A stretch of DNA of 64,000 bases. It comes from Herbidospora galbida. Its GTDB lineage: Bacteria > Actinomycetota > Actinomycetes > Streptosporangiales > Streptosporangiaceae. The stretch lies in contig NZ_SZQA01000002.1 in the NCBI RefSeq assembly GCF_005233835.1, positions 186,001 to 250,000 of the forward strand, in the 5' to 3' direction. This document shows, piece after piece, positions 43,091 through 59,526 of the stretch. The notes beneath the pieces were generated by a model. The model searched no databases and was not told the origin of the DNA. It saw only the letters and a list, made by a program, of their open reading frames with translations. Every line of letters begins with the position of its first letter. Positions within the stretch are counted from its first letter, which is position 1. A program made the translations under genes and the position numbers.

Positions 43091-44362
43091 ATGAAGCCAC
43101 GTGTGCTGGTCAGCGCTGCTGTGGTCGCATTGGTGTCGTTAGTCGCGGCGTGCGGCGGTTCGGGTGCGGGCGGGCAGCAGCCCGCCGCCTCGGACGCCGG
43201 CGTCGAGGTCACGATGTGGACCCGGGCGGCCACCCAGGCGCAGAGTGAGCGGTTGGTCAAGGCCTACAACGCGAGCCACAAGAACCAGGTGAAACTGACC
43301 GTCATCCCGACGGACAACTACCAGCCGAGGGTCGCCGCGGCGGCCGGCGCGGGGCAGCTGCCCGACATCTTCGCCTCCGACGTGGTGTTCGTGCCCAACT
43401 ACACCTCGCAGGGCCTGTTCATGGACATCACCGACCGGGTCGCGTCCCTGCCGTTCAAGGACAGCCTCGCGCCCTCGCACATGAAGCTGGGCACCCTGGA
43501 GGGCCGGAACCACACCCTCCCGCACACGCTCGACCTGTCGGTCTGGTTCTGGAACAAGGACCTCTACGAGAAGGCCGGGCTCGACCCGGAGAAGGGCCCG
43601 ACGTCCCTCAAGGAGTTCGCCGAGCAGGCCACCGCCGTCGACGAGAAACTCGGCCAGGACGGCAAGGTCAGCGGCACCTTCTTCGGCGGCAACTGCGGCG
43701 GCTGCTTCGTCTTCACCTTCTGGCCCTCGGTCTGGGCGGCCGGCGGTCAGACGCTCAACCCCGAGGGCACCGAGTCCCTCAACGACAAGTCGCCGATGAC
43801 CGACGTGTTCGCGATCTACCGGGGCCTCTTCGAGAAGGGCGTCACCGGCGCCACCACCAAGGAGGAGCAGGGCCCGACCTGGACCGGCTTCTTCCCCAAG
43901 GGTGAGATCGGCGTCATGCCGATGCCGTCGACCACGCTCGGCTCGATGCCCGCCGACATGAACATCGGCGTCGCGCCGATCGCCGGCCCCGACGGCGGCG
44001 AGTCGACCTTCGTCGGCGGCGACTCCGTCGGCATCTCCTCGACCAGCAAGAACGCCGACGCCGCCTGGGACTTCCTGGCCTGGTCGGTCTCGGACGAGGC
44101 CCAGGTCGAGGTCATGGCCAAGAACAAGGACGTGCTCGCGCGGGTCGACCTGGCCGACAACAAGTACTCGGCGGAGGACCCCCGGGTGGTCCTGATCAAC
44201 TCCCTGGTCGGCAAGGGCCAGACCCCGATGGCGCTGAAGTTCGGCGAGAGCTTCAACGACCCGCAGGGGCCCTTCCTCCGCCTCGCCCGCGAGGCCCTCT
44301 TCGGCGACGCCGCGAAGGTGACCGAACTCAACGCCGCGATCAACGCCTCGTTGCGGTCATGA
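43091..44362 (+). CDS. Sugar ABC transporter solute-binding lipoprotein
   Basis: The 423-residue family-1 solute-binding protein has a lipoprotein signal ending LVAAC (lipid-carrying Cys21) followed by GGSGAGG. VEVTMWTRAATQAQSERLVKAYN opens the mature domain. GGAAGGAG precedes ATG 43091. It captures an oligosaccharide at the cell surface; from the locus the ligand should be a beta-L-arabinooligosaccharide. It overlaps the first permease gene by 4 bp. Confidence 0.92.
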   Translation: MKPRVLVSAAVVALVSLVAACGGSGAGGQQPAASDAGVEVTMWTRAATQAQSERLVKAYNASHKNQVKLTVIPTDNYQPRVAAAAGAGQLPDIFASDVVFVPNYTSQGLFMDITDRVASLPFKDSLAPSHMKLGTLEGRNHTLPHTLDLSVWFWNKDLYEKAGLDPEKGPTSLKEFAEQATAVDEKLGQDGKVSGTFFGGNCGGCFVFTFWPSVWAAGGQTLNPEGTESLNDKSPMTDVFAIYRGLFEKGVTGATTKEEQGPTWTGFFPKGEIGVMPMPSTTLGSMPADMNIGVAPIAGPDGGESTFVGGDSVGISSTSKNADAAWDFLAWSVSDEAQVEVMAKNKDVLARVDLADNKYSAEDPRVVLINSLVGKGQTPMALKFGESFNDPQGPFLRLAREALFGDAAKVTELNAAINASLRS

Positions 44363-45297
44363 CCACCCTGACACGCCCCCGTGGGCGTGCGGCGCGCGGA
44401 GGTTCCTCCTCCGCCGTCGCGCCGCCGCCCTGGTGGCGCCGCCAAGGAGCACAGGGCTGGCTGTACGCCGCCCCGACCGCCCTGATCGTGGTCGTGCTCT
44501 TCCTGGCGCCACTCGTCCTCGTCGGCTGGATGTCACTGAACCGGTGGCCCCTGCTGGGCGAGGCCACGCTCAACGCCCCCGCCAACTACACCAAGATCGC
44601 CGACAACCCGCTCTTCGCCGACGCCGTGTGGTTCACCCTGAAGTACACCGTGATCATCACGGTCGTGCTCTCGCTGTTCGCGCTCGGCCTGGCCCTGCTC
44701 GTCCAGGAGCGCAGGCCCGGCGTGGGGTTCTTCCGCACCGCGTTCTTCCTGCCCGGCGCGGTGGGCTTCGCGGCGGCGGCGCTGCTCTTCTACGGCATGC
44801 TCAACAGCGACTTCGGCCCGATCGACCCGATCCTGCGAACCCTGGGGATCATCGACGAACCGGTCAGCTGGATCGGCACGCCGAACATGGCGCTGTTCTC
44901 CACGATCACGCTCGTGCTCTGGCGCTTCGCCGGGTTCAACATGCTCATCCTGCTCACCGGCCTACAGGCCATCCCGGTCGCGGTGTACGAGGCGGCCCGC
45001 ACCGACGGCGCGAGCCGCTGGGTGATCTTCCGCCGGATCACGCTGCCGCTGCTGCGCCCCACGATCGCGCTGATGCTCATCATGAGCGTCACCGGCTCGC
45101 TGCTGGCCTTCGACCAGTTCTTCATCTTCACCAACGGCGGCCCCGACAACAGCACCGTCTCGATGGTCATGGTGATCTATCGCGACGCCTTCCTCCGGTT
45201 CGACCTCGGCGGCGCCGCCGCCCTGTCGGTCGTGCTGCTGATCGCCCTCGTCGCGCTCAACGCCCTGCAGCTGCGGGTCCTCAGGAGGCCGGAGTGA
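44359..45297 (+). CDS. Sugar ABC transporter permease, MalF type
   Basis: The 312-residue product has six helices and the binding-protein-dependent permease EAA loop (VYEAARTDGASRWVIFRRITLPLL). A basic Ala/Ser-rich N-terminus precedes the first helix. ATG 44359 overlaps the solute-binding protein stop (ATGA). No ATPase gene is in the locus; as usual in actinobacteria a shared MsiK-type ATPase encoded elsewhere is expected. Confidence 0.92.
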   Translation: MTTLTRPRGRAARGGSSSAVAPPPWWRRQGAQGWLYAAPTALIVVVLFLAPLVLVGWMSLNRWPLLGEATLNAPANYTKIADNPLFADAVWFTLKYTVIITVVLSLFALGLALLVQERRPGVGFFRTAFFLPGAVGFAAAALLFYGMLNSDFGPIDPILRTLGIIDEPVSWIGTPNMALFSTITLVLWRFAGFNMLILLTGLQAIPVAVYEAARTDGASRWVIFRRITLPLLRPTIALMLIMSVTGSLLAFDQFFIFTNGGPDNSTVSMVMVIYRDAFLRFDLGGAAALSVVLLIALVALNALQLRVLRRPE

Positions 45298-46058
45298 GGT
45301 ACTACACCACCATGTCGGCCCTGGCCGTCCTGTTCCTGTTCCCGCTGGTGTGGAGCGGGTGGGCGTCCATGGAGGAGCCGCACAACTACGTCGAGATGGC
45401 CGGCTTCGGCGAGGGGCTGGGCACGTATCTGACCAACAGCGTCGTCGTCTCGGTGATGACCGTCGCGGGCACCCTGTTCGTCTCGGCGCTCGGCGGCTAC
45501 GCCTTCGCCCGGTTCGCCTTCCCCGGCAAGAACCTGCTGTTCCTGGCGACGCTGGCGATTCTGATGGTGCCGTACGCGACGGTGCTGATCCCGCTGTACG
45601 TGCTGCTCGGCTACATCGGGCTGCAGAACTCGCTGGTCGGCGTGGCCCTGGTGTTCGTCATGTTCCAGCTCCCGTTCGCGCTGTTCATGATGCGCAACGC
45701 GTTCGAGGCGTTGCCGAAGGAACTGGAGGAGGCGGCGCTGGTCGACGGCTGCACGACCTTCCGGGCGTTCCTCCGCATCTTGCTGCGGGCGGTCCGGCCG
45801 GCCATGGTCACCGTCGGGCTGTTCGCCTTCCTGGCCTCCTGGAACGACTTCTTCGCGCCGCTGATCCTGCTCAACGACGGCGCCGGCTTCACGCTGCCGG
45901 TCGCGGTGGTCAGCATGACGCAGAACACGTTCGGCGCCATCGACTACGGCATGTTGCAGGCCGGCGTCATGGTCATGGCGATCCCGTGCCTGATCCTCTT
46001 CCTCGTCCTCCAGCGCCACTACGTGCGCGGATTCATGTCAGGAGCTCTGCGTGGCTAG
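45294..46058 (+). CDS. Sugar ABC transporter permease, MalG type
   Basis: The 254-residue permease starts at GTG 45294, overlapping the previous stop (GTGA), with AGGAGG upstream. The EAA loop is ELEEAALVDGCTTFRAFLRILL. It is ~20 residues shorter at the N-terminus than typical MalG permeases, starting almost directly in the first helix. The stop lies 8 bp inside the GH127 gene. Confidence 0.92.
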   Translation: MRYYTTMSALAVLFLFPLVWSGWASMEEPHNYVEMAGFGEGLGTYLTNSVVVSVMTVAGTLFVSALGGYAFARFAFPGKNLLFLATLAILMVPYATVLIPLYVLLGYIGLQNSLVGVALVFVMFQLPFALFMMRNAFEALPKELEEAALVDGCTTFRAFLRILLRAVRPAMVTVGLFAFLASWNDFFAPLILLNDGAGFTLPVAVVSMTQNTFGAIDYGMLQAGVMVMAIPCLILFLVLQRHYVRGFMSGALRG

Positions 46059-47892
46059 TCCTGTGCTGCCCTCCTCCGGCGTGCTGTCCCCCCTCGGCCT
46101 GGACGCCGTGCGCCCCGCGCCCGGTTTCTGGGGCGACCGGATCGCCCTGAACCGCGAGGTCACCATGGCCCACTGCCAGGAATGGATGGAGAAGGAGGGC
46201 TGGATCGCCAACTTCCGGGGCGGGGTGCCACGCCGCGGCCGGGAGTTCAGCGACTCGGAGATCTACAAGCTGCTGGAGGGCATGGCCTGGGCCGACCATC
46301 CGGCGCTGCCGGAGCTGGCCGGGATCGTGGCCCGCGCGCAGGAGCCCGACGGCTACCTCAACACCCGCTGGCGGTACGCCCGCTACACCGACTTCGAGTG
46401 GGGCCACGAGCTGTACTGCTACGGCCACCTCATCCAGGCCGGGGTCGCCCGCCTCCGCACCCACGGCGAAGACGAACTGACGCAGGTCGTCCGCCGGGTC
46501 GCCGACCACGTGTGCGCCCGGTTCATGGAGACCACCGAGACCTGCGGGCACCCGGTGGTCGAGATGGCCCTGGTCGAGCTCTACCGCGCCACCGGCGTGG
46601 AACGTTACCTGGAGATGGCCCGCCGGTTCGTCGACCGCCGGGGGCTGCCGGCGCTGGCCGACATCGAGTTCGGCCGGGGCTACTTCCAGGACGACGTCCC
46701 GGTAAGGCAGGCCAAGGTGTTCCACGGCCACGCCGTGCGGGCGCTCTACCTGGCCTCCGGGGTCGTCGACGTCGCGGTCGAGACCGGCGACGCCGACCTG
46801 CTGAAGACCGTCGAGGCGCAGTGGGAGTCGACGATCGCCCGGCGCACCTACCTGACCGGCGGGATGGGCTCGCGCCACTTCGGCGAGTCGTTCGGCGAGG
46901 ACTTCGAGCTGCCGTCCGACCGGGCCTACTCGGAGACCTGCGCCGGCGTCGCCTCGTTCATGCTCTCGCACCGGCTGCTGCTGGCCACCGGCGACGTCCG
47001 CTACGCCGACCTGGCCGAACGCACTCTCTACAACGTGCTGGCCACCTCGCCCGCGCTCGACGGCAAGTCGTTCTTCTACGCCAACCCGCTGCAGGTCCGG
47101 GTGCCGGCCGAGCCGCTCGACGGGATCAACCTGGCCGCCGAGGGCGGGCTGCGCTCGCCGTGGTTCACGGTGTCGTGCTGCCCGAGCAACATCGCGCGGA
47201 CGTTCGCCTCCCTGCCCGCCTACTTCGCGGCGGCCGAGGAGTCCGGCGTCCGGATCCACCACTACACGCCCGCGGAGATCCGGCACGACGGGCTCGTGCT
47301 GAACGTGGAGACCGACTACCCGTGGTCGGGCCGGGTCGCCGTCACGGTGGCCGAGGGCGGGACCGGGTCGATCTCGCTGCGGGTGCCCTCATGGGCCGAA
47401 GGGGCGACCGTCTCCTACGGCGAGACGCGGCGCGCGGTCTCGCCCGGCTACGCCGTCGCGGAGGCCGAAGGCGGGTGGCGTCCGGGCGACGTCATCACCC
47501 TCGACCTGCCCGTCATCTCCCGCTGGACCGTGCCGGACGCCCGGATCGACGCGCTCAGGGGCAGCGTCGCGATCGAGCGCGGCCCGCTGGTCTACTGCGC
47601 CGAATCGGTGGGGGACCAGCCTCCGCTGGCCGAGGTCGTGGTCCGGCCGGACGCGGCCGTGGAGCACGTGGTCGACGGCGCCGTCGAACTGGACGTCAAG
47701 GCGGCGCTCATCTCAGGGGTGCCGACCGGCTGGCCGTACACGGCCGAGAAGGAGACCCCGGACGAGGAGCCGATCACCCTGCGGCTGGTGGCCTACCACC
47801 GCTGGGGCAACCACGGGCCCGCGACGATGCGGGTCTGGCTTCCCGTCGACACCGCCCGAACCGACCGATCCCGGTACCTGGAGGAAGTCTAA
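46051..47892 (+). CDS. hypBA1: Beta-L-arabinofuranosidase, GH127
   Basis: The 613-residue enzyme has the GH127 (formerly DUF1680) layout: VRPAPGFWGDR at the start, KLLEGMAWA, GHELYCYGHLIQAG, YLTGGMGSRHFGESFG, YSETCAGVA and SCCPSNIARTFASLPAYF. The last supplies the two adjacent cysteines; GH127 uses Cys as nucleophile with a Zn2+ held by three cysteines and a glutamate. No signal peptide, so it acts inside the cell on imported sugar, freeing L-arabinose from beta1,2-linked arabinobiose or arabinosyl-hydroxyproline. GTG 46051 has AGGAG upstream and overlaps the permease by 8 bp. Confidence 0.92.
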   Translation: MASPVLPSSGVLSPLGLDAVRPAPGFWGDRIALNREVTMAHCQEWMEKEGWIANFRGGVPRRGREFSDSEIYKLLEGMAWADHPALPELAGIVARAQEPDGYLNTRWRYARYTDFEWGHELYCYGHLIQAGVARLRTHGEDELTQVVRRVADHVCARFMETTETCGHPVVEMALVELYRATGVERYLEMARRFVDRRGLPALADIEFGRGYFQDDVPVRQAKVFHGHAVRALYLASGVVDVAVETGDADLLKTVEAQWESTIARRTYLTGGMGSRHFGESFGEDFELPSDRAYSETCAGVASFMLSHRLLLATGDVRYADLAERTLYNVLATSPALDGKSFFYANPLQVRVPAEPLDGINLAAEGGLRSPWFTVSCCPSNIARTFASLPAYFAAAEESGVRIHHYTPAEIRHDGLVLNVETDYPWSGRVAVTVAEGGTGSISLRVPSWAEGATVSYGETRRAVSPGYAVAEAEGGWRPGDVITLDLPVISRWTVPDARIDALRGSVAIERGPLVYCAESVGDQPPLAEVVVRPDAAVEHVVDGAVELDVKAALISGVPTGWPYTAEKETPDEEPITLRLVAYHRWGNHGPATMRVWLPVDTARTDRSRYLEEV

Positions 47893-50800: not shown

Positions 50801-52626
50801 ACCGTCAGGCCGGCGGTTACCACGAGCCCGCCCGCTGGTGGATCCAGGTGCCCGACGGCCAGGGCGGCTGGAAGGAGGTGCCGGGCCAGTTCAAGAACCC
50901 GGCCGTGCCGACCGCGAAGTTCAACGAGGCGCTGTTCGACTCCGTGACCTCCGACAAGGTGCGGATCGTCTTCACCAACAGCCCGGCCCACTACACCGCG
51001 ATCTCCGAGATCCAGGTCTTCGACTCGGGCCGTGAGGTCCCGGACGTCTCCAACCAGGCCCCGGACGTCACCGCCGCCCGCGACGCCTCGCAGGACGGCA
51101 ACCTGTCGACCCGCCTGGTCGGCACCGCCGCCGACGACGGCGTGCCCTACGACGACGAGCTCACCTACGGCTGGGAGACCGTCTCGGCGCCGGCCGGCGC
51201 GGGCGTCATCTTCGCCGACTCCAAGGCCCTGGCCACCCGCGTGACCGGCACCGCCGAGGGCGACTACGTCTTCCGGTTCTTCGCCGACGACGGCGAGAAG
51301 CGGTCGACCGCCACGGTGTCGGTGACCCTGGCCAAGAAGGCCGTCTCCGCGGAGTTCGGCTCCTCGGCGACCATCACCACCAGCGGCACCGCGTCGTGGG
51401 AGAACCACTCGCGGGTCAACGAGAACACCACCCCGGCGAACAGCAACCCCGGCGCCGGCAACGGCTGGGGCAACTGGGGCCAGCCCCGCAACGGCACCAG
51501 CCCGGCCAACGAGGCGTGGATCCAGTACACCTGGGCCTCGCCGGTCCGGCTCTCCTCGACCGATGTCTACTGGTACGACGACAACGGCGGCACCCGCCGC
51601 CCGACGGCCACCACGTACGCCATCGAGACCTCCACCGACGGCGCCACCTGGACGCCCGTCACCCTCACCGGAGGATCGACGTACGTGGCCGGCCTGAACA
51701 CCAACGCCTACAACAAGTTCAACTTCACGCCGGTCAGCACCAGCCGGATCCGCATCCGGATCTGGGGCCTGATGACCGGCGGCGCGGGCACCGGCGTGCT
51801 GCGCTGGCGGGCCAACGGCGAGACCGTCGACTCGGTGGCCTCCCCGGTGCTGATCCGGACCGGCGTCGGCCTCGTCCCGACCTTGCCGGCGACGCTGGAC
51901 GCGACCTACACCAGCGGCGCCCCCGGCCAGGTGGCGTTCACCTGGCAGCCCATCACCGCGGACATGGTCGCCGAGACCAACGTCGACCCGTTCGTCGTGT
52001 ACGGCACCAACGACGCCTACGGCCTGATCGCCGAGGCCCGCGTCTACGTGCGTCCCGAGATGTCGGAGGGCGGCATCTCGATCCAGGGCGCCGAGTCGTT
52101 CGAGCGGCACGTGGAGGTCGGCGAGCAGCCGGTGCTGCCCACCAAGGTCTCGGTGTCGTACAACGACGGCTCCCGTGACAACCAGGCCATCGGCGTGAAC
52201 TGGCGGTACAACCCCGAGGTGGTGAACACCGACGGGACGTACACGATCATCGGCGACCTGGTCCTGCCGTCCTACGTCAGCCAGGCGGGCACCACGCAGA
52301 CCACGCTGAAGCTCGTCGTCGGGGAGGGCGGTCCGCGGTTCGCGACCACCGTCACGCCGAAGACGCAGTGCACGGGCATGAACGTCTACCTGTCGCTCAG
52401 CGTCCGCAACGACTCCGACGGGCCGCTCACTATCGAGCTCGGCACGCCCTACGGAACGAAGACGGTGTCCGGCGTGGCGCCCGGCAAGAACGCCTTCCAG
52501 TCGTTCAACACCCGCGCCAGGTCGATCCCGGCCGGCACGGCGACCGTGAAGGTCACCGGGACCGTCGGCGGCCAGTCGGTCACCGAGACGGCGTCGGTGC
52601 CCTACACCGCGCGCAACTGCGGCTAG
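47893..52626 (+). CDS. hypBA2: Large secreted glycosidase, GH121-like beta-L-arabinobiosidase
   Basis: The product is 1577 residues with a signal peptide (cleavage near AHA, residue 32). The first ~840 mature residues are an N-terminal beta domain plus an (alpha/alpha)6-type catalytic part (FNRQWAEDVPYIDVPDPALEKAIVYRWWGERYN region, SENLIPFDQAAKYVDGYRFL, DYGYEHF-like end). F5/8-type discoidin domains follow at ~875-1050 and ~1150-1310, an Ig-like domain at ~1055-1150, a Big_4 domain at ~1315-1385, another Ig-like unit at ~1390-1485 and a Cys-closed C-terminal module at ~1490-1577. The GH121 call rests on synteny with B. longum HypBA2 and on architecture. It would release beta-L-arabinobiose outside the cell. 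A rare TTA codon occurs at residue 443 (49219-49221). Confidence 0.75.
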   Translation: MSARRIGRAPTWLALAALTVAGLVSLPPAAHAATPILPGNEGDVGVYTNGQNHAMEIGDPVYANVGDVANQVKPGVPFTASSMHQSIFDKDLAAGGTDYYLDRVLGVQGAVGSAVLMTRGRSLYMRGASNANFTTMGFAGSAFVGGPNNLGNFYTVTVPGQTVTEVNANRFNAPSHARSRYTIGGTGVTADLTKFITYENVAVTAITFTNPGGSAATFTVRAASPLATQAGAGDAELTGTRTITSGSNNGLIDTPWNQIRVNLTGDGFARTGANLDREITVPAGGSVSLSVVGAVTQDSLPQAAAEYRAYAQKSPAEAVKDGITAFNRQWAEDVPYIDVPDPALEKAIVYRWWGERYNTLDANATGYVYQYPTTIEGVNLYQNAVALTQPMHLQDTKWLRTPYLPYGQILNIGELSGSSAFLDSPGHTSWNNHYSQYIGTAGLEAYEVHGGGKEIAQKFARYFEGDGKGQLEHYDGNGDKLIAYDTNYMPGNDADAISFGFPKVGGGAPGARTIERPESAYVWGAFDAARQLYSAAGADQAKVDEMAASADGIRDAILTKLWSPDTKMFLAAASHGATSAASSNGTANPLPAAARGLIPAKESNLYDVYSENLIPFDQAAKYVDGYRFLTYGDNFPIFPFYTANQYDRTAYGIGGSNNFSNINFTVQYRAVRSALRHYDPAGKYITPAYAKRLLDWMAWSIYPAGDLRAPNQSEYYSNWNPTTKTYNRNNPNHVMLGNMNYIFVEDMGGIQPRADDKIELWPIDFGYEHFMVNNLKYHGQDVTLVWDPDGTAYGLGSGYSLFLNGERKFAVDKLGQVTYDPAANTVTPAAGVTVTFKATEGDDFPTSVNTPIEDERVVSYLKTAGIDLTEDAANLAKGATLASSYTQQGARPASWRQFHTPGYSTTSMNYTPGAIKELERPVALAAVTDGVTANEPYWGNYGTTEKNGHVELNFGSAKTFDNVKVFFVSDRQAGGYHEPARWWIQVPDGQGGWKEVPGQFKNPAVPTAKFNEALFDSVTSDKVRIVFTNSPAHYTAISEIQVFDSGREVPDVSNQAPDVTAARDASQDGNLSTRLVGTAADDGVPYDDELTYGWETVSAPAGAGVIFADSKALATRVTGTAEGDYVFRFFADDGEKRSTATVSVTLAKKAVSAEFGSSATITTSGTASWENHSRVNENTTPANSNPGAGNGWGNWGQPRNGTSPANEAWIQYTWASPVRLSSTDVYWYDDNGGTRRPTATTYAIETSTDGATWTPVTLTGGSTYVAGLNTNAYNKFNFTPVSTSRIRIRIWGLMTGGAGTGVLRWRANGETVDSVASPVLIRTGVGLVPTLPATLDATYTSGAPGQVAFTWQPITADMVAETNVDPFVVYGTNDAYGLIAEARVYVRPEMSEGGISIQGAESFERHVEVGEQPVLPTKVSVSYNDGSRDNQAIGVNWRYNPEVVNTDGTYTIIGDLVLPSYVSQAGTTQTTLKLVVGEGGPRFATTVTPKTQCTGMNVYLSLSVRNDSDGPLTIELGTPYGTKTVSGVAPGKNAFQSFNTRARSIPAGTATVKVTGTVGGQSVTETASVPYTARNCG

Positions 52627-52635
52627 CACCCCCCT

Positions 52636-52667
52636 GGTGGCGGCGTCTCCCGTGGGGCGCCGCCACC
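52636..52667 (+). terminator. Intercistronic hairpin between the two large glycosidase genes
   Basis: GGTGGCGGCG (52636-52645) pairs with CGCCGCCACC (52658-52667). It starts 10 bp after the first stop and ends 26 bp before the next start. It could partially terminate transcription or stabilise the upstream mRNA. Confidence 0.6.
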
Positions 52668-52692
52668 CTTGCCGACGGTAAGGAAGAGCACC

Positions 52693-55600
52693 TTGAAGAT
52701 CGCCATACGGGCGGCGGCCGCCGCCTCACTCGTGGCGGCCTGCCTGGTCGGGCTGCCCGGTCCGGCCCATGCCGCCGACTCGTACACCTTCACCAGCACC
52801 GTCAACCCGATCCTGAAGGACGGCACCTACTACTCCGCCGACCCCGCCCCCCTCGTCGTCGACGACCAGCTCTTCGTCTACACCGGCCACGACCAGGCCG
52901 GGCCCACGACCAACGACTTCATCATGAACGAGTGGGGCGCGTTCGCGACCTCCGACGTGGAGTCGGGCCAGTGGACCCACTACCCCTCGCTCATGCGCCC
53001 GGAGGCGGTCTTCGCCTGGGCCACCCCGGGCCGCGCCTACGCGGGCCAGGTGGTCAGGGGCCTCGACGGCCGCTACTACTGGTACGTCCCGATCAACGAG
53101 CGGGAGAGCCCGGCGTCCGACAAGTTCGCCATCGGCGTCGCCGTGTCCGACTCGCCGACCGGCCCGTGGACCGACCACGTGGGCGGGCCGCTGATCTCCC
53201 AGCGGGTGCCCACGGCCAACACCATCCACAACATCGACCCGACCGTCCTGGTCGACGGCCAGCGGGTCTTCATCTGGTGGGGATCGTTCGGCAACCTGAG
53301 AATGCTGGAACTCGCCGCCGACATGAAGACCCCGGTCACCACCCAGCGCACGGTGACCGGCCTGACCGGCTTCTTCGAGGCGGCCTGGGCGTTCAAGCGG
53401 AACGGCGTCTACTACATGGCGTACGCCGGCAACAACGCCGGCCCGACCTCGCAGTGCACCCCGGCGAACTACCACGCCTGCATCGCCTACGCCACGGCCG
53501 CGGCCCCCGAGGGGCCCTGGACCTACCGCGGCACGATGCTCCGGCCGGTCTCCTCGACCACCAGCCACCCGGGCATCCTGGAGTTCGACGGCAAGTGGTA
53601 CATCGCCTACCACACGGCCGACGCCGCCGGCGGCAACCACTTCCGCCGGTCGGTCGCGATCGACCCGGTGGAGTGGGACGACACCCAGACCCCACCGCGC
53701 ATGAAGCTCGTCACGCCGACCCCGGTCAAGGGCCGTGACCGCACGCCCCGGCCGAACATCGCGCAGGAGGCCAGGGTCGCCGTCTCGAACGAGCCGGTGC
53801 CCACCCAGTACTGGGTGAAGGCGCTCAACGACGAGATCCAGCGGCCCAACCCGCTGCCCCCGGACATGTGGGGCACCTGGACCGGCGGCAATCCGCCGCA
53901 GCAGTGGGTCCAGTACACCTGGGACCAGCCGATGCGGATCTCGGGTTCCCAGATCGACTTCTGGAACGACTCGGCGCAGGGCACCGGCGTGGGCGTCGCC
54001 GCCCCGGCGAGCTGGAAGATCCAGTACTGGAACCCGGCCACCGGCCAGTGGGCCGACGTCCCCGCTCCGAGCGGCTACCCGACCGCCACCCAGGGTCTCC
54101 AGAACACGAACTTCGACCCGGTGACCACCACGCAGGTCCGGGCGACCTTCAACGCCTCCACCAACGGCAGCACCTACTCGGCCGTCGCGGTGGAGGAGTG
54201 GAAGATCCTGGCCGCCCAGCCCGCGAACCTCACCCCGCCCGCCATCAGGGTCGAGGTCGGCGAGCGCGAACTGCCCGGCACGGTGCCCGTCGCCTTCGGC
54301 GGCGAGACGCTGCGGATCCCGGTCTTCTGGGACGCCGTGACCGACGGGCAGGTCGCCGCACCCGGCACGTTCTCCATCGAGGGGACCGTGCTCGGCTACG
54401 CGGCGGGAAGGGTCACCGCCCAGGTCACCGTCCTGTCGCCGGAGGGCACCGAGGGCGACGTGACCAGGCCCGAGGTGACGCTCACCCCGAGCGGCAGCGC
54501 CGGGACCAACGGCTGGTACCGGTCGGCGGTGCGCGTCAGGGCCGACGGGGTCGACGACAGCGGCGGCCGGATGACCATCGAGACCAAGGTCGACGACGCC
54601 GCCCCGGTCGTCACCACCGACACCCGCGCGGCCGACGCCACGGTGACCGGCGAGGGCGAGCACACCGTCACCGCCAGGGCCACCGACCGCGCGGGCAACG
54701 TCTCCGACGCCGCGGCCCTGTCGGTGAAGATCGACTCGGTCGCGCCCGCCAGCGTCGGCACGCTCAACGCCAACCGGACCGTCAAGGTCCTGGCGGCCGA
54801 CCCCACCTCGGGCGTGGCCGGCATCGAGTACGCCATCGGCACCGGCCCCTGGACCCCGCTCGCGGGCGGCGTCATCTCGGCGCCGGACGCCAGTAAGTAC
54901 ACGGTGTCCTACCGGGCGACCGACCGGGCGGGCAACGTCGAGACCGCCAAGACGATCGTCATCCCGGCCGACCTGTCGGCGCCGCTCAACGGCAACGTCG
55001 CCCCGATCGCGACGCCGACGGCCTCGTACACGGCGGGCTGGAACGCGGTCTCCGCCCTCAACGACAACGCCGACCCGGCCAACCCGAGCCAGGCGCAGAT
55101 CTGGGGCACCTGGTCGGGCACCCGCCCGGCCACCCAGTGGACGCAGTACGAATGGTCCCGCCCGGTCCGGATCGTCAGCTCCGAGCTGAAGTTCTGGCGC
55201 GACTCCGACCAGGGCACCGGCGACGGCGTCGCCCAGCCCGACGGCTGGGTCCTGCAGTACTGGGACGAGGCCGCCTCGGCCTGGCGGGACGTGCCGAACC
55301 CGTCCGCTTACGGCACGAGCACGACCGCGTTCAACACCGTCTCCTTCACCCCCGTCACCACCTCCCGGGTGCGGGCCACGATCCGGGCCAACGGCAACGG
55401 GACCACCTACTCGGCGGTCGCGGTCACGGAGTGGCGGGTCTTCGCCCAGGAACCCGCCCCCGAGGAGCCCGCCGGGCTCCCCGTGACGGTCACGGTCACC
55501 CCGCGCTGCCTGGCCGGCAAGGCGTACGTCGCCGTGCAGGCGCGCAACGACCACGACGCGGCGGTGGACCTCACCGTCGAGACCGCCTTCGGCGCGAAGT

Positions 55601-55752
55601 CGTTCACCGGCGTCGCCCCGGGCGTGAACGCCTACCAGTCGTTCACCACCCGCGCGGCCTCGATCGGGGCGGGCTCGGTCACCGTCACCGCCACCGACGG
55701 GGAGACGACCTCCGCGCACACGGGCACCTACCCCGCTCTTTCCTGTCCCTGA
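52693..55752 (+). CDS. Secreted GH43-type alpha-L-arabinofuranosidase with discoidin domains
   Basis: The 1019-residue protein starts at TTG 52693 with AAGGAAG 6 nt upstream. The signal peptide ends near GPAHAADS. The GH43 five-bladed propeller (~35-345) shows the three acidic positions: YSADPAPLV (Asp50), NIDPTVLVDG and FFEAAW. Then come a discoidin domain (~355-510), Ig-like units (~515-770), a second discoidin domain (~770-925) and the Cys-closed module shared with the GH121-like protein (~935-1019). In the B. longum extensin locus the matching gene (hypAA) removes the terminal alpha-1,3-arabinose before HypBA2 acts; the same role is likely here. Confidence 0.85.
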   Translation: MKIAIRAAAAASLVAACLVGLPGPAHAADSYTFTSTVNPILKDGTYYSADPAPLVVDDQLFVYTGHDQAGPTTNDFIMNEWGAFATSDVESGQWTHYPSLMRPEAVFAWATPGRAYAGQVVRGLDGRYYWYVPINERESPASDKFAIGVAVSDSPTGPWTDHVGGPLISQRVPTANTIHNIDPTVLVDGQRVFIWWGSFGNLRMLELAADMKTPVTTQRTVTGLTGFFEAAWAFKRNGVYYMAYAGNNAGPTSQCTPANYHACIAYATAAAPEGPWTYRGTMLRPVSSTTSHPGILEFDGKWYIAYHTADAAGGNHFRRSVAIDPVEWDDTQTPPRMKLVTPTPVKGRDRTPRPNIAQEARVAVSNEPVPTQYWVKALNDEIQRPNPLPPDMWGTWTGGNPPQQWVQYTWDQPMRISGSQIDFWNDSAQGTGVGVAAPASWKIQYWNPATGQWADVPAPSGYPTATQGLQNTNFDPVTTTQVRATFNASTNGSTYSAVAVEEWKILAAQPANLTPPAIRVEVGERELPGTVPVAFGGETLRIPVFWDAVTDGQVAAPGTFSIEGTVLGYAAGRVTAQVTVLSPEGTEGDVTRPEVTLTPSGSAGTNGWYRSAVRVRADGVDDSGGRMTIETKVDDAAPVVTTDTRAADATVTGEGEHTVTARATDRAGNVSDAAALSVKIDSVAPASVGTLNANRTVKVLAADPTSGVAGIEYAIGTGPWTPLAGGVISAPDASKYTVSYRATDRAGNVETAKTIVIPADLSAPLNGNVAPIATPTASYTAGWNAVSALNDNADPANPSQAQIWGTWSGTRPATQWTQYEWSRPVRIVSSELKFWRDSDQGTGDGVAQPDGWVLQYWDEAASAWRDVPNPSAYGTSTTAFNTVSFTPVTTSRVRATIRANGNGTTYSAVAVTEWRVFAQEPAPEEPAGLPVTVTVTPRCLAGKAYVAVQARNDHDAAVDLTVETAFGAKSFTGVAPGVNAYQSFTTRAASIGAGSVTVTATDGETTSAHTGTYPALSCP

Positions 55753-55780: not shown

Positions 55781-56401
55781 ATGAAGATCCAGCACAGATG
55801 GCTGCTCGCGGCGGCCGTCGCCATGACCACCGCCGTCGCCTTCCCCGGCGCGGCCGCAGCCGACCCCGGTGACAGCACCGACGTCGCGGTGACCGTCGAG
55901 ATCGCCCCGATCGAGGAGCCGGGCGTCCTGGCCATGTCCGTCGCCGCCAACTCGGTCGCCCTGGCCGAGGACGGCTCGACCCTGGAGGAGCGCCGGTTCA
56001 CCGGCACCCTCCCGACGGTGACCGTCACCGACACCCGTACCGGCGACGAGATCCCCGAGGGCGCGGCGTGGGCCGTGCTCGGCAACGCCTCCGACTTCAC
56101 CGGCGACGCCGGCCAGGCGGCCATCGGCGCCGGTCACCTCGGCTGGAAGCCGAACCTGATCGACGGCGGCGACACCGGCCTGGTCGCCGAGGGAGAGGAG
56201 GTCGTGACCGTCCTCGACGAGCCGACCCAGCCGGGCAACAACGTCGGCCTGGTCGACCAGGAACTGCTCGTCTCGACCTTCGACTCCGGCGAGGTCACCG
56301 AGGGCTCCTACACCGTCGACGCCGACCTGTTCCTGAAGACCCCGGCCGACGTGGCCGCCGGTTCCTACAGCTCCACGCTGACCCTGTCCCTGTTCGAGTA
56401 G
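55781..56401 (+). CDS. Secreted WxL-like surface protein, uncharacterised
   Basis: The 206-residue product starts at ATG 55781 (GGAG 6 nt upstream). It has a signal peptide to about AAAADPG and an all-beta mature domain (VAVTVEIAPIEEPGVLAMSV; HLGWKPNLIDGGD; LFLKTPADVAAGSYSSTLTLSLFE). The ending resembles WxL-domain proteins, in which a tryptophan motif and a final SLFE-type strand bind the wall. The next gene is a DUF916-type partner, the usual WxL locus pairing. Only one W-containing motif (GWKP) is seen, so the assignment is tentative. Confidence 0.6.
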   Translation: MKIQHRWLLAAAVAMTTAVAFPGAAAADPGDSTDVAVTVEIAPIEEPGVLAMSVAANSVALAEDGSTLEERRFTGTLPTVTVTDTRTGDEIPEGAAWAVLGNASDFTGDAGQAAIGAGHLGWKPNLIDGGDTGLVAEGEEVVTVLDEPTQPGNNVGLVDQELLVSTFDSGEVTEGSYTVDADLFLKTPADVAAGSYSSTLTLSLFE

Positions 56402-56451: not shown

Positions 56452-57429
56452 ATGACCCGATTCCTCGCCGTCCTCGTGGCGGTGCTGCTCGCCGTTCCGC
56501 TCGCGCCCTCGGCCGCCCACGCCGAACCGGCCACGCTGACCTGGTCGGTCCAGCCGGCGACCGCCGCGGGCCCCGACGGACGGCGCTGGATCGAACTCTC
56601 CCTCGACCCCGGCCAGACCGTGACCGAGCACCTGGCGGTGCGCAACTTCGGCGACGGCGAGGCGGTCTTCGCCCTCAAGGCGGCCGACGGCTACCTGACC
56701 GACAAGGGCCGCTTCAACATGCTCCAGTCCGACCAGACCTCCAAGGACGGCGGCACCTGGATCGACGTCCAGAAAGAAGTCAGGGTCGGCGGCAACGCGA
56801 CCACGGTCGTGCCGTTCACCATCACCGTGCCGAAGGACGCCGCCCCCGGCGACCACCCGGCCGGCATCGCCGCCACCGTCACCAGCGCAAGCGGCACCGT
56901 CGCCGTGGAGAGCCGGGTCGGCTTCCGCGTCATGATGCGCGCCACCGGCGCCATCAGGGCCGAAGTGGCGGTCACCGGCTTGTCGGCCGTCTACGAGCAG
57001 CCGTGGAACCCCTTCTCCTCGGGAACCGTCACGGTGAAGTACACGGCGACCAACAAGGGCAACGTCGCGGCGGGCGGCGCGGGCGCGGTGGCGGTCAGCG
57101 ACCTGACCGGGCTGGCCGGACGCGACGGCCGGGCCGACGTGGCGGAGATCTTCCCCGGCGACAGCCGGACGGTGGAGACCAGGATCGGCGGCGTCTGGGC
57201 CCTCGGCCCGATGTCCGCGAACGTCACCGTGACCCCCTCGGTCGAGGGCGGCGTCCCGATGAGCGCCGACGTGACGCTCTGGACCGTCCCGTGGCCGCAA
57301 CTGGCCCTGGTCGCGCTGGTCGTGGTGTTGTTCCTCGCCTACCGGGCGATCGCCCGCCGCCGTCGCCGGTATCTGGAAGACCTGCTGGCCAGGGCCCGCG
57401 ACGAGGGCCGCGCCGAAGCCCGGGGCTAG
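56452..57429 (+). CDS. DUF916-like (WxL-locus) membrane-anchored surface protein
   Basis: The 325-residue product has a signal peptide (to SAAHAEP), a first beta domain beginning LTWSVQPATAAGPDGRRWIELSL and LAVRNFGDGEAVF (the DUF916 peptidoglycan-binding pattern), a second Ig-like domain (DUF3324-like), one C-terminal helix (~288-305) and a basic cytoplasmic tail (RRRRRYLEDLLARARDEGRAEARG). DUF916 proteins sit in the membrane and hold WxL proteins at the wall. Placement at the end of the arabinose locus suggests anchoring of secreted enzymes or plant-wall binding (inference). Confidence 0.75.
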   Translation: MTRFLAVLVAVLLAVPLAPSAAHAEPATLTWSVQPATAAGPDGRRWIELSLDPGQTVTEHLAVRNFGDGEAVFALKAADGYLTDKGRFNMLQSDQTSKDGGTWIDVQKEVRVGGNATTVVPFTITVPKDAAPGDHPAGIAATVTSASGTVAVESRVGFRVMMRATGAIRAEVAVTGLSAVYEQPWNPFSSGTVTVKYTATNKGNVAAGGAGAVAVSDLTGLAGRDGRADVAEIFPGDSRTVETRIGGVWALGPMSANVTVTPSVEGGVPMSADVTLWTVPWPQLALVALVVVLFLAYRAIARRRRRYLEDLLARARDEGRAEARG

Positions 57430-58820
57430 ACCTCGCTCATGACGACCGTGCGCGCGGTGGGCAGCGCCACGTGCACGGTCGTCCCGTTCCCCGGGGCCGA
57501 GGTGATCCAGCAGCGCCCGCCGTGCGCGTCGGTGATGGCCTTCACGATGGCCAGGCCGAGGCCCGCGCCGCCGGTGGCGCGTTCCGAGGAGCCCTGGGTG
57601 AACCGGTCGAAGGCCTGGGCGACCTGCTCGGGCGGCATCCCCGGGCCCTGGTCGGTGATCTCCAGGAGCACCCGGGCGTCGTCCTGCGCCAGGTGGATCA
57701 GCGCGGGGGTGCCTTCGGGGGTGTGGGCGCGTACGTTGGCCAGCAGGTTCACCATGATCTGCCGGATCCTGGCCTCGTCGACCACCGCGACCAGCGAGTC
57801 GGGGGCGTTGACGACGATGGGGGAGCCGGGGTTCAGCGCGCCCGCGTCGGCGGCGGCCTCCCTGACCACCTCGGCCAGGTCGGTGGCGGCCAGGCTGAGG
57901 GTGGCGCCCTTGTCGAGGCGGGCCAGCTCCAGCATCTCGGTGACCAGGTTGCCCATGCGGGTGGCCTCGTCCTCGATGCGGCCCATGATCTTGGGGAGCT
58001 GCTCGGGCGGGATCGCGCCGGCGCGGTAGAGCTCGGCGTAGCCGCGTACCGTGGACAGCGGCGTGCGCAGTTCGTGGGAGGCGTCGGCGGCGAAGCGGCG
58101 GACCCGCTCCTCGGAGGTCCAGCGGTCGCGGAACGCCTCGGAGATGCGGTCGAGCATCAGGTTGATGGCGCTGCCGAGCCGGCCGACCTCGGTGGCTCCC
58201 TCGGGCATCCGGGCCGACAGGTCGCCGCCCTGGGCGATCCGCAGGGCCGTGCGCGACATGCGGTCGAGCGGCGACAGGCCCGACACGATCAGCAGCCGCC
58301 CGCCCAGCGCCAGCAGCGCGATCAGCAGCCCGCCGGTGACGAGCTCGGCCAGCAGCAGGTGGCGGACCGGGTCGCCGACGGCGTCGAGCGGCACCGCCAC
58401 GACCACGATGCTGGTTCCGGTACGGTCCTTCGCCGCGCTCGCCAGCAGGTCGTCGCCCAGCTGGAAGGTGCGCCCGGCGGCGGCGTGCCCGCCGAGCCGG
58501 TCGGCGCCGAGGTCGGCGAGCATGCCCGGCACCTTGGGCGACTGCGGGAAGTCGCCGTTGACCAGCGCGGGCTTGCCGCTTTTGAGGTTGACCTGCGCGA
58601 CCGCGAACGGCGAGCCGGCCAGCGCCTGGGTGACCGACTCCACGGCGTCGACCCGCCGGGTGGCGGTCGCGGTGGCGGCCAGCAGCTGGCTCTCCAGCCG
58701 GCTGGTGAGGTGCTGTTCCAGCACCACCGCGCTCGTGACCGACAACACGACGAGCAGGATCGTGCTCACCACGAGCAGCCCGGCCAGCAGCCGGGAGCGG
58801 AGCGACATCGTCAACGCCAT
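57426..58820 (-). CDS. HAMP-domain sensor histidine kinase
   Basis: About 464 residues from ATG 58820. A first helix (LLAGLLVVSTILLVVLSVTS), an extracellular domain of ~120 residues, a second helix (LLLAELVTGGLLIALLALGG) and HAMP are followed by HisKA with DASHELRTPLSTVRGYAELY (phospho-His) and HATPase_c with NLLANVRAHT, DQGPGMP and GGAGLGLAIV. It follows its response regulator after a 19-bp gap. The ligand is unknown. It overlaps the DUF916-like gene by 4 bp convergently. Confidence 0.92.
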   Translation of the reverse strand: MALTMSLRSRLLAGLLVVSTILLVVLSVTSAVVLEQHLTSRLESQLLAATATATRRVDAVESVTQALAGSPFAVAQVNLKSGKPALVNGDFPQSPKVPGMLADLGADRLGGHAAAGRTFQLGDDLLASAAKDRTGTSIVVVAVPLDAVGDPVRHLLLAELVTGGLLIALLALGGRLLIVSGLSPLDRMSRTALRIAQGGDLSARMPEGATEVGRLGSAINLMLDRISEAFRDRWTSEERVRRFAADASHELRTPLSTVRGYAELYRAGAIPPEQLPKIMGRIEDEATRMGNLVTEMLELARLDKGATLSLAATDLAEVVREAAADAGALNPGSPIVVNAPDSLVAVVDEARIRQIMVNLLANVRAHTPEGTPALIHLAQDDARVLLEITDQGPGMPPEQVAQAFDRFTQGSSERATGGAGLGLAIVKAITDAHGGRCWITSAPGNGTTVHVALPTARTVVMSEV

Positions 58821-58839
58821 TTCGTCTGGCCCCGATCTG

Positions 58840-59526
58840 TCAGGGCCGCAGAGCGTATCCCACGCCACGTTGCGTGTGGATCAGAGGTGGTCCGAGCGGG
58901 TCCAGCTTCCGCCGCAGATAGGAGATGTACGTCTCCAGCACCTGCGACGATCCGCCGTACCCCCAGACCTGGTCGAGCAGCTGCCGTTTGGTCAGCACCA
59001 GCCCGGGATGTTCCATCAGGAAGGCGAGCAGCCGGAACTCGGTCGGCGACAACTCCACCCTGACCCCGCCGCGGCGCACCTCCCACCGGGCCTCGTCGAG
59101 TTCGAGGTCGGCGACCCGCAGCACGTCCCGGCTGGGACGCTCCGCGACGTCGGGGACGGTCGTCCGGCGCAGCACCGCCCGGACCCGCGCGATCAGCGCC
59201 TCCACCGAGAACGGTTTGGTGACGTAGTCGTCGCCGCCCATGGTGAGCCCGCGCACGGTGTCGGAGACGGTGTCGCGCGCGGTCAGGAAGATGACGGGCG
59301 TGGTCGCGCCCTCGGCCCTGACCCGGCGGCAGATCTCGAACCCGTCGATGTCGGGGAGCATCACGTCGAGCACGATGAGGTCGGGCCTGCGCTCGGCGAA
59401 CTCGCGCAGCGCGTCGCGCCCGTTGGCCACGGCCTTGACGGTGAACCCGTGGAAGCGGAGGGCCACCTCGATGATGTCGCGGATGTTCGGGTCGTCTTCG
59501 ACGACGAGGATCCTGGTCTCACTCAT
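58840..59526 (-). CDS. OmpR/PhoB-family response regulator
   Basis: The 228-residue protein has a receiver domain with acidic pair EDD (10-12), phospho-acceptor Asp54 in IVLDVMLPD and the KPFS lysine, then an OmpR winged-helix (LSPTEFRLLAFLMEHPGLVLTKRQLL, ETYISYLRRKLD, TQRGVGYALRP). It forms a two-component system with the adjoining kinase and closely resembles TcrA/MprA-like regulators. Target genes are not evident from the sequence. Confidence 0.93.
   Translation of the reverse strand: MSETRILVVEDDPNIRDIIEVALRFHGFTVKAVANGRDALREFAERRPDLIVLDVMLPDIDGFEICRRVRAEGATTPVIFLTARDTVSDTVRGLTMGGDDYVTKPFSVEALIARVRAVLRRTTVPDVAERPSRDVLRVADLELDEARWEVRRGGVRVELSPTEFRLLAFLMEHPGLVLTKRQLLDQVWGYGGSSQVLETYISYLRRKLDPLGPPLIHTQRGVGYALRP

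Follow-up and report, generated by a model that had tools for sequence, protein, structure and literature searches.

Why should two neighbouring secreted enzymes of different fold end in the same tail? The question is raised by a 64,000-nucleotide stretch of the Herbidospora galbida genome (assembly GCF_005233835.1, contig NZ_SZQA01000002.1, positions 186,001 to 250,000; hereafter the window), in which a GH121-like and a GH43 protein (GH, glycoside hydrolase family) are encoded side by side and are followed by genes for a WxL-like and a DUF916 protein. A first-pass annotation had proposed that the enzymes share a cysteine-closed C-terminal module with a common task, for instance retention in the wall, binding of substrate, or docking, possibly to a WxL/DUF916 pair. 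The common tail was confirmed: BLASTP aligned the two tails with 33 of 70 residues identical (47%, E = 2e-20), and their local alignment score was 167 against a best of 66 in 2000 shuffles. The cysteines also lie where they had been placed. Cys 1493 and Cys 1576 are the sole cysteines of the whole 1577-residue GH121-like chain, whilst those of the GH43 tail are residues 947 and 1026 counted from 52669, or 939 and 1018 counted from a TTG at 52693; the start is best placed at this TTG, and the C939 of the annotation is correct provided that translation begins there. In both tails the last cysteine is the penultimate residue. Only the length of ~85 residues needed revision, the module being about 92 amino acids with its strand A preceding the first cysteine. 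Our preferred answer, which we consider reasonably probable, is that the tail docks secreted enzymes to a surface complex of WxL-like and WxLIP proteins, and that the system is a variant, in actinobacteria, of the Csc clusters of Firmicutes.

Searched singly, neither window tail came near the cut-off of any family in Pfam-A or NCBIfam. A 60-row alignment of the module gave weak and inconsistent matches, the best being Lipoprotein_17 in Pfam (E = 0.0026) and TIGR04203 in NCBIfam (E = 0.00062, 5 of 60 rows), and a sequence search of the PDB with the module returned no relative. The initial statement that no named domain was known for the module was thus borne out, no well-described domain having been matched. 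The C-terminal domain of phospholipase C (PF05506; 4 of 60 members, best E 0.038) was tried as a candidate and dropped, since none of the three genomes searched contained that family. Using the alignment, AlphaFold2 predicted a seven-stranded immunoglobulin (Ig)-like sandwich (mean predicted local distance difference test score 96.6, predicted template modelling score 0.85), with strands at module residues 2-11, 14-23, 29-35, 38-45, 50-56, 65-75 and 78-88. With this model Foldseek found no match in the PDB at E <= 0.001 (best E 0.019). VIA-align reported many Ig-like matches, with Z up to 9.7 for a domain of a GH2 beta-glucuronidase (90 residues, root-mean-square deviation 2.4 Å); a fold missing from the VIA list is not thereby proved absent. 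The predicted resemblance would reflect a common arrangement only, with no convincing sequence relation. Ig-like accessory domains such as the GH2 sandwich, NEW3/NPCBM_assoc and CARDB have a similar fold, whereas the paired terminal cysteines and the terminal position are the module's own.

Of the two proteins encoded downstream, the DUF916 assignment was supported: the window protein matched PF06030 with 25.6 bits (E = 1.4e-5), just under the cut-off of 27.3, the DUF916 profile matched the EfmWxLIP1 sequence of PDB entries 9i25 and 9i1y (E = 0.0012), and a hydrophobic C-terminal helix with a basic tail was present in all 20 aligned rows. The WxL assignment did not hold by direct comparison, since PF13731 (WxL) was not among the matches for any of the 28 WxL-like rows and was over its cut-off in 0 of 10 genomes. 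A distant link runs through a protein (G045 C58:4869-5309) that the WxL-like profile (A4) finds at 8.5e-20 and that matches PF13731 at 4.6e-4. We call the partner WxL-like by its position, size and apparent distant homology, and 'WxL' is here only a working label. The module, WxL-like and DUF916 profiles showed no homology to one another (hhalign probability 0.3-5%). The H. galbida genome also has, at G000:C73:137041-138588, a second WxL-like gene of the generic class (58.7 bits), accompanied by a DUF916 gene of its own (255.6 bits) and with no module hit adjoining. In Phytohabitans flavus the DUF916 gene (L183, 10917-12205) seems to be split over three frames, through a frameshift or a sequencing error.

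The module is a domain family, found in 33 of 394 genomes of the class with up to 13 copies each (for each genome of this sample only the leading candidates of a first look were scored, 13 for the module and 8 for WxL-like proteins), and 243 of its 247 copies are placed at the very C-terminal end. In 228 of the 247, three residues or fewer follow the module, and in the 243 at most 13; the remaining four comprise three first members of tandem pairs and one copy that precedes a carbohydrate-binding module, CBM5/12. A C-terminal hydrophobic helix with basic tail, of the LPXTG or transmembrane (TM) type, was not found on module hosts, whose chains mostly end right after the module. Such extreme C-terminal placement is typical of sorting or anchoring elements. 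In a sample of the phylum the module occurred in 6 of 396 genomes, all six of the same class as the window. The H. galbida genome itself holds three real copies, the third in a protein with GH127 and LamG domains on contig C87 and lacking both cysteines (locus L004 of this search was discarded as spurious). Amongst named genomes, 151 of 162 pattern matches were relatives, of which 80 were kept, from Microbispora, Acrocarpospora, Streptosporangium, Herbidospora, Nonomuraea, Sphaerisporangium, Micromonospora, Phytohabitans, Dactylosporangium, Plantactinospora, Jiangella and Cellulosimicrobium. Plasmid records with the module were one from Cellulosimicrobium, two from Clavibacter and a Nonomuraea record filed as a plasmid; the phages and viral contigs searched held no relative. 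The Clavibacter phaseoli plasmid pCCh (L224) carries an island that unites several genes for GH43 with module enzymes and the DUF916/WxL-like pair.

A strong clue to function is the company that the module keeps. Profiles of the WxL-like and DUF916 proteins found both throughout loci that had been fetched solely for the module. Across the 394 genomes, hits of the WxL-like profile fell into two score classes, with 33 places at >=190 bits and generic places mostly <85 bits; four lay at 100-190 bits, three of them fragments. We speak of a dedicated WxL-like subtype at >=100 bits, of full-length or strong copies at >=190 bits and of a dedicated DUF916 protein at >350 bits. Of the 33 module-positive genomes, 20 had the dedicated WxL-like subtype, as against none of the 361 module-negative ones (Fisher 2.8e-25, on genomes that are not independent, kinship being uncorrected), and the genus-level association was 7/11 versus 0/126 (2e-9). 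For dedicated DUF916 proteins the count was 20 of 33 in the module-positive set, against 0 of 36 for module-negative genomes that carry generic WxL-like proteins. Every one of the 33 full-length WxL-like copies has a module on the same contig within 6 kb, and 24 start <=600 bp downstream of it on the same strand. In six of the remaining nine the gene order is WxL-like, DUF916, GH121, GH43 (~5.5 kb), and three are on the opposite strand, 3.2-3.6 kb from the module.

Seen from the module genes, the picture is similar. Behind 202 of them, in a screen run without the WxL profile and with the duplicate loci L001 and L220 removed, the most frequent gene was another module enzyme (70), followed by WxL-like (62), DUF916 (38) and the next gene (16). 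The same two partner genes stand beside module enzymes on annotated plasmids of Cellulosimicrobium protaetiae and C. phaseoli, and one Microbispora-like genome has its own WxL-like copy at 7 of 13 module loci. Because WxL-like genes lie behind members of at least 16 different host sub-clusters, it is the tail, rather than any single enzyme, to which they are linked.

Genetic linkage and co-occurrence in several genera thus support one of the tasks first suggested for the tail, docking to the WxL/DUF916 pair. In the mechanism that we propose, the disulfide-clamped, seven-stranded Ig-like module at the C-terminus would dock secreted enzymes, and the socket would consist of the small WxL-like protein and the membrane-anchored DUF916/WxLIP protein, often encoded right behind the enzymes. 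The module would bind either the WxL-like protein or the WxLIP, as part of a complex in the wall, presumably for the sake of retention. In the window, a GH121 beta-arabinobiosidase and a GH43 arabinofuranosidase would be kept beside the ATP-binding cassette (ABC) importer that takes up their product.

Two known systems bear on this proposal. The hydroxyproline-arabinoside cluster of Bifidobacterium longum, as laid out in PMC7263609, encodes a solute-binding protein, two permeases, HypBA1 (GH127), HypBA2 (GH121) and HypAA (GH43), and HypBA2 carries F5/8-C and Big4 domains and then a FIVAR-transmembrane anchor. The window has the same gene set, and its GH121 protein the same core with F5/8-C and Big4. 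However, where that description has the HypBA2 anchor, the Herbidospora protein terminates with the Cys-closed module, and the next genes of its cluster are those for the WxL-like and DUF916 proteins. By this positional argument the module may take the anchor's place. The second system is the Csc cluster of Firmicutes, whose DUF916 and WxL proteins are proposed in PMC1534035 to form surface complexes for plant carbohydrate use; WxLIP is proposed to bind WxL and peptidoglycan (PMC10599100). In these operons CscA combines DUF916 with a TM segment, CscB is a small WxL protein, CscC a large WxL protein and CscD an LPXTG protein. Like those described, the actinobacterial loci pair a DUF916/WxLIP-like membrane protein with a small WxL-like secreted one in carbohydrate-use operons. 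They differ in that the enzymes bear an Ig-like module of ~92 amino acids instead of a C-terminal WxL domain of 160-190 amino acids, and in that the small WxL-like protein falls below the Pfam WxL cut-off. The word Actinobacteria is absent from the main text of the Csc/WxL papers compared, including these two, and searches of open-licence PMC papers on DUF916/WxL in Actinobacteria or on C-terminal docking modules listed nothing that describes the module or its pairing. PMC12537917 mentions DUF916 genes next to HupE/UreJ-2-linked 'anglerase' genes, the latter having been found with a query from Streptomyces.

Several observations weigh against a docking role. The dedicated WxL-like protein is missing from 13 of the 33 module-positive genomes, two of which are fragmented Microbispora-like assemblies. 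Jiangella relatives (G104, G122, G195 and G292) keep module-bearing GH121 and GH43 proteins without the dedicated WxL-like protein, so that there the module either acts without it or has another partner. Amongst 222 module genes (259 minus 37 with too little downstream DNA), 66 have a WxL-like gene <=700 bp downstream and 156 do not; 32 of these 156 reach one through one or two other module genes, which brings the total to 98 of 222. In nine genomes whose best GH121 is ~41-46% identical, two proteins have a TM-like anchor and seven have neither TM segment nor module. Module similarity was higher between unrelated hosts within a genus (0.754) than between homologous hosts across genera (0.632), a result driven by Microbispora; the within-genus value in Herbidospora was 0.41.

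Two auxiliary ideas were given up on these grounds. That every GH121 needs an anchor was rejected on the 7 of 9 remote GH121 tails with neither element, and that the tail follows the genome and not the enzyme, as in co-evolution with a cell-specific partner, had a mixed, Microbispora-driven outcome. Two GH121 paralogues (L240 and L241, in G343 and G374) have a hydrophobic helix and a basic tail at their end, behind an STGVPE/ATGMPE stretch, and both of these genomes use the module too.

The hosts allow the first alternative to be weighed. The 190 complete host proteins form 27 loose or 49 tight clusters, and a Pfam scan covered 41 of the 49 tight-cluster representatives. Glycosidase hosts are of the GH43 (several architectures), GH127, GH95, GH92, GH59, GH31, GH30, GH10 and GH121 types, and further hosts include an alpha-L-arabinofuranosidase (ASD1 type), a pullulanase, an esterase and a xylose-isomerase-like barrel. 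Outside the glycosidases, the module is found on ThuA/GSDH and LVIVD proteins, a multicopper oxidase, and M14 and S8 peptidases. A crude script test detected a signal-like segment in 185 of the 190, and secretion, not substrate, is what the hosts have in common. Because peptidases, a multicopper oxidase, LVIVD and ThuA/GSDH proteins are amongst them, substrate binding is less likely to be the common task. The module could still be a domain that binds glycans or the wall in general, in the manner of a CBM or of a peptidoglycan binder, and that binds no protein, with the WxL-like/DUF916 pair as a separate adhesion device in the same operons. This would suit hosts that are mostly glycosidases with other binding modules, an ordinary Ig-like sandwich and the persistence of the module in genomes without the dedicated pair. 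Yet these same non-glycosidase hosts make a single plant glycan an unlikely target, and a binder of this kind need be neither C-terminal (243/247) nor tied to one WxL-like subtype (20/33 versus 0/361). We give this alternative a small but real chance.

The state of the cysteines bears on the second alternative. Amongst 247 distinct copies, 226 have both cysteines, 19 neither and two a single one. Both single cases are artefacts, one a row with the second cysteine only that was clipped by a locus edge and the other L049, whose second cysteine precedes CBM5/12. Twelve of the 19 Cys-less stretches are full-length and come, by inspection, from about seven separate lineages; the other seven are first tandem copies or distant, partial matches. 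Because the pair in the tail is all-or-none and comprises the only cysteines of the GH121-like protein, an internal disulfide of the module is very likely, judging by these residue patterns. None of the 28 WxL-like rows contains a cysteine, and the bond is therefore not to the WxL-like protein. An all-or-none pair at both ends of a domain, at the extreme C-terminus of many unrelated hosts, could also describe a stabilising cap against unfolding and carboxypeptidases, with the WxL-like linkage arising from shared polysaccharide-utilisation operons. A cap leaves unexplained why a dedicated WxL-like gene lies behind at least 16 enzyme types and is absent from 361 of 361 module-negative genomes, and about seven lineages without either cysteine still keep the module, so we think it improbable.

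More doubtful still is a secretion or maturation signal, with the WxL-like protein as an extracytoplasmic pilot or chaperone in export and not a permanent anchor: the strictly terminal position recalls known C-terminal sorting domains, and single WxL-like genes are paired with single module operons, often with no adjacent DUF916 gene (Microbispora-like genome), but the module is a folded domain with no tail of hydrophobic or charged residues, just 0-3 residues follow it in 228 of 247 copies, and ordinary signal peptides are already present in 185 of 190 hosts by the crude test.

Returning to docking, a broader proposal can be made, tentatively and at somewhat less than even odds: Actinobacteria would have an undescribed, cellulosome-like plug-in system, with the small disulfide-clamped Ig module as universal plug on unrelated secreted enzymes such as glycosidases, peptidases and oxidases, and the co-inherited WxL-like adaptor and membrane WxLIP as socket. 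The dockerin of cellulosomes consists of paired calcium-binding repeats. As an analogy, cohesin-dockerin systems also have one common C-terminal element on many different enzymes, which plugs into a surface complex. In contrast, the module tails have no listed Pfam dockerin match and a predicted all-beta Ig-like sandwich, and no multi-cohesin scaffold was seen beside module genes. If the plug-in system is real, many enzyme operons bring their own adaptor copy. The way in which soil actinobacteria retain large secreted enzymes close to the cell, for which the usual answer is LPXTG or TM anchors, would become open to testing, and the WxL/WxLIP surface system, which has been studied in gut and lactic Firmicutes, would reach into the breakdown of plant polysaccharides by Actinomycetes. 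A short module compatible with enzymes of many folds would, in addition, be a tag ready for use in surface display.

Features of the window locus are collected in Table 1.

Table 1. Genes and module parts of the GH121/GH43 cluster (window coordinates)
Feature	Position	Strand	Remarks
GH121-like protein, module part	52348..52623	+	Cys-closed Ig-like (predicted), C-terminal; Cys codons 52369 and 52618
GH43 protein, module part	55483..55749	+	Cys-closed Ig-like (predicted), C-terminal; Cys codons 55507 and 55744
GH121-like beta-L-arabinobiosidase, HypBA2-like, 1577 amino acids	47893..52626	+	NF041578 at residues 108-889
GH43 protein, probable HypAA counterpart by position	52693..55752	+	TTG start 52693 preceded by GTAAGGAAGAGCACC stretch
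WxL-like protein, secreted, stand-alone, ~206 amino acids, no cysteine	55781..56401	+	directly behind GH43 gene; belongs to the dedicated subtype, which the sample has in module-positive genomes only
DUF916/WxLIP-like protein, C-terminal membrane helix and basic tail	56452..57429	+	PF06030 match just under cut-off, helix
ABC transporter solute-binding protein, same cluster	43091..44362	+	
ABC transporter permease, same cluster	44359..45297	+	reading from sequence
Second permease, same cluster	up to about 46058		after permease 44359..45297; reading from sequence
GH127 beta-L-arabinofuranosidase, HypBA1-like, without module or visible signal peptide	46051..47892	+	

The GH121-like protein consists of the NF041578 region, F5/8 type C domains, PKD, Big_4 and, last, the module. 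Its match to the GH121 HypBA2 model NF041578 (595.6 bits, E 2.2e-178) is below the equivalog cut-off of 3200 bits, and the best stretch, listed in Table 1, corresponds to model positions 118-904 of 1709. The GH43 protein has GH43, F5/8 type C-like, Big_4 and OmpL47-type domains, again with the module last; the OmpL47-type domain (NCBIfam E 1.1e-23) lies at 54769-54960 of the window, residues 701-764 counted from 52669.

A few further observations concern unusual relatives and neighbours. Weak, Cys-less module relatives occur in proteins at L119 (1038-5645) and L088 (2425-4990), and of these L119:3396-5645 was scanned and matched nothing in Pfam at 1e-5. Jiangella-type proteins of 754-823 amino acids (L090 4428-4970, L091 615-1157 and L118 2756-3298) carry two tandem, divergent module-like repeats; that of L091, the one scanned, likewise had no Pfam match at 1e-5. 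Behind the DUF916 gene of the window, reading of the open frames places a histidine kinase and a response regulator at 57426-59526 on the minus strand, convergent with the cluster.

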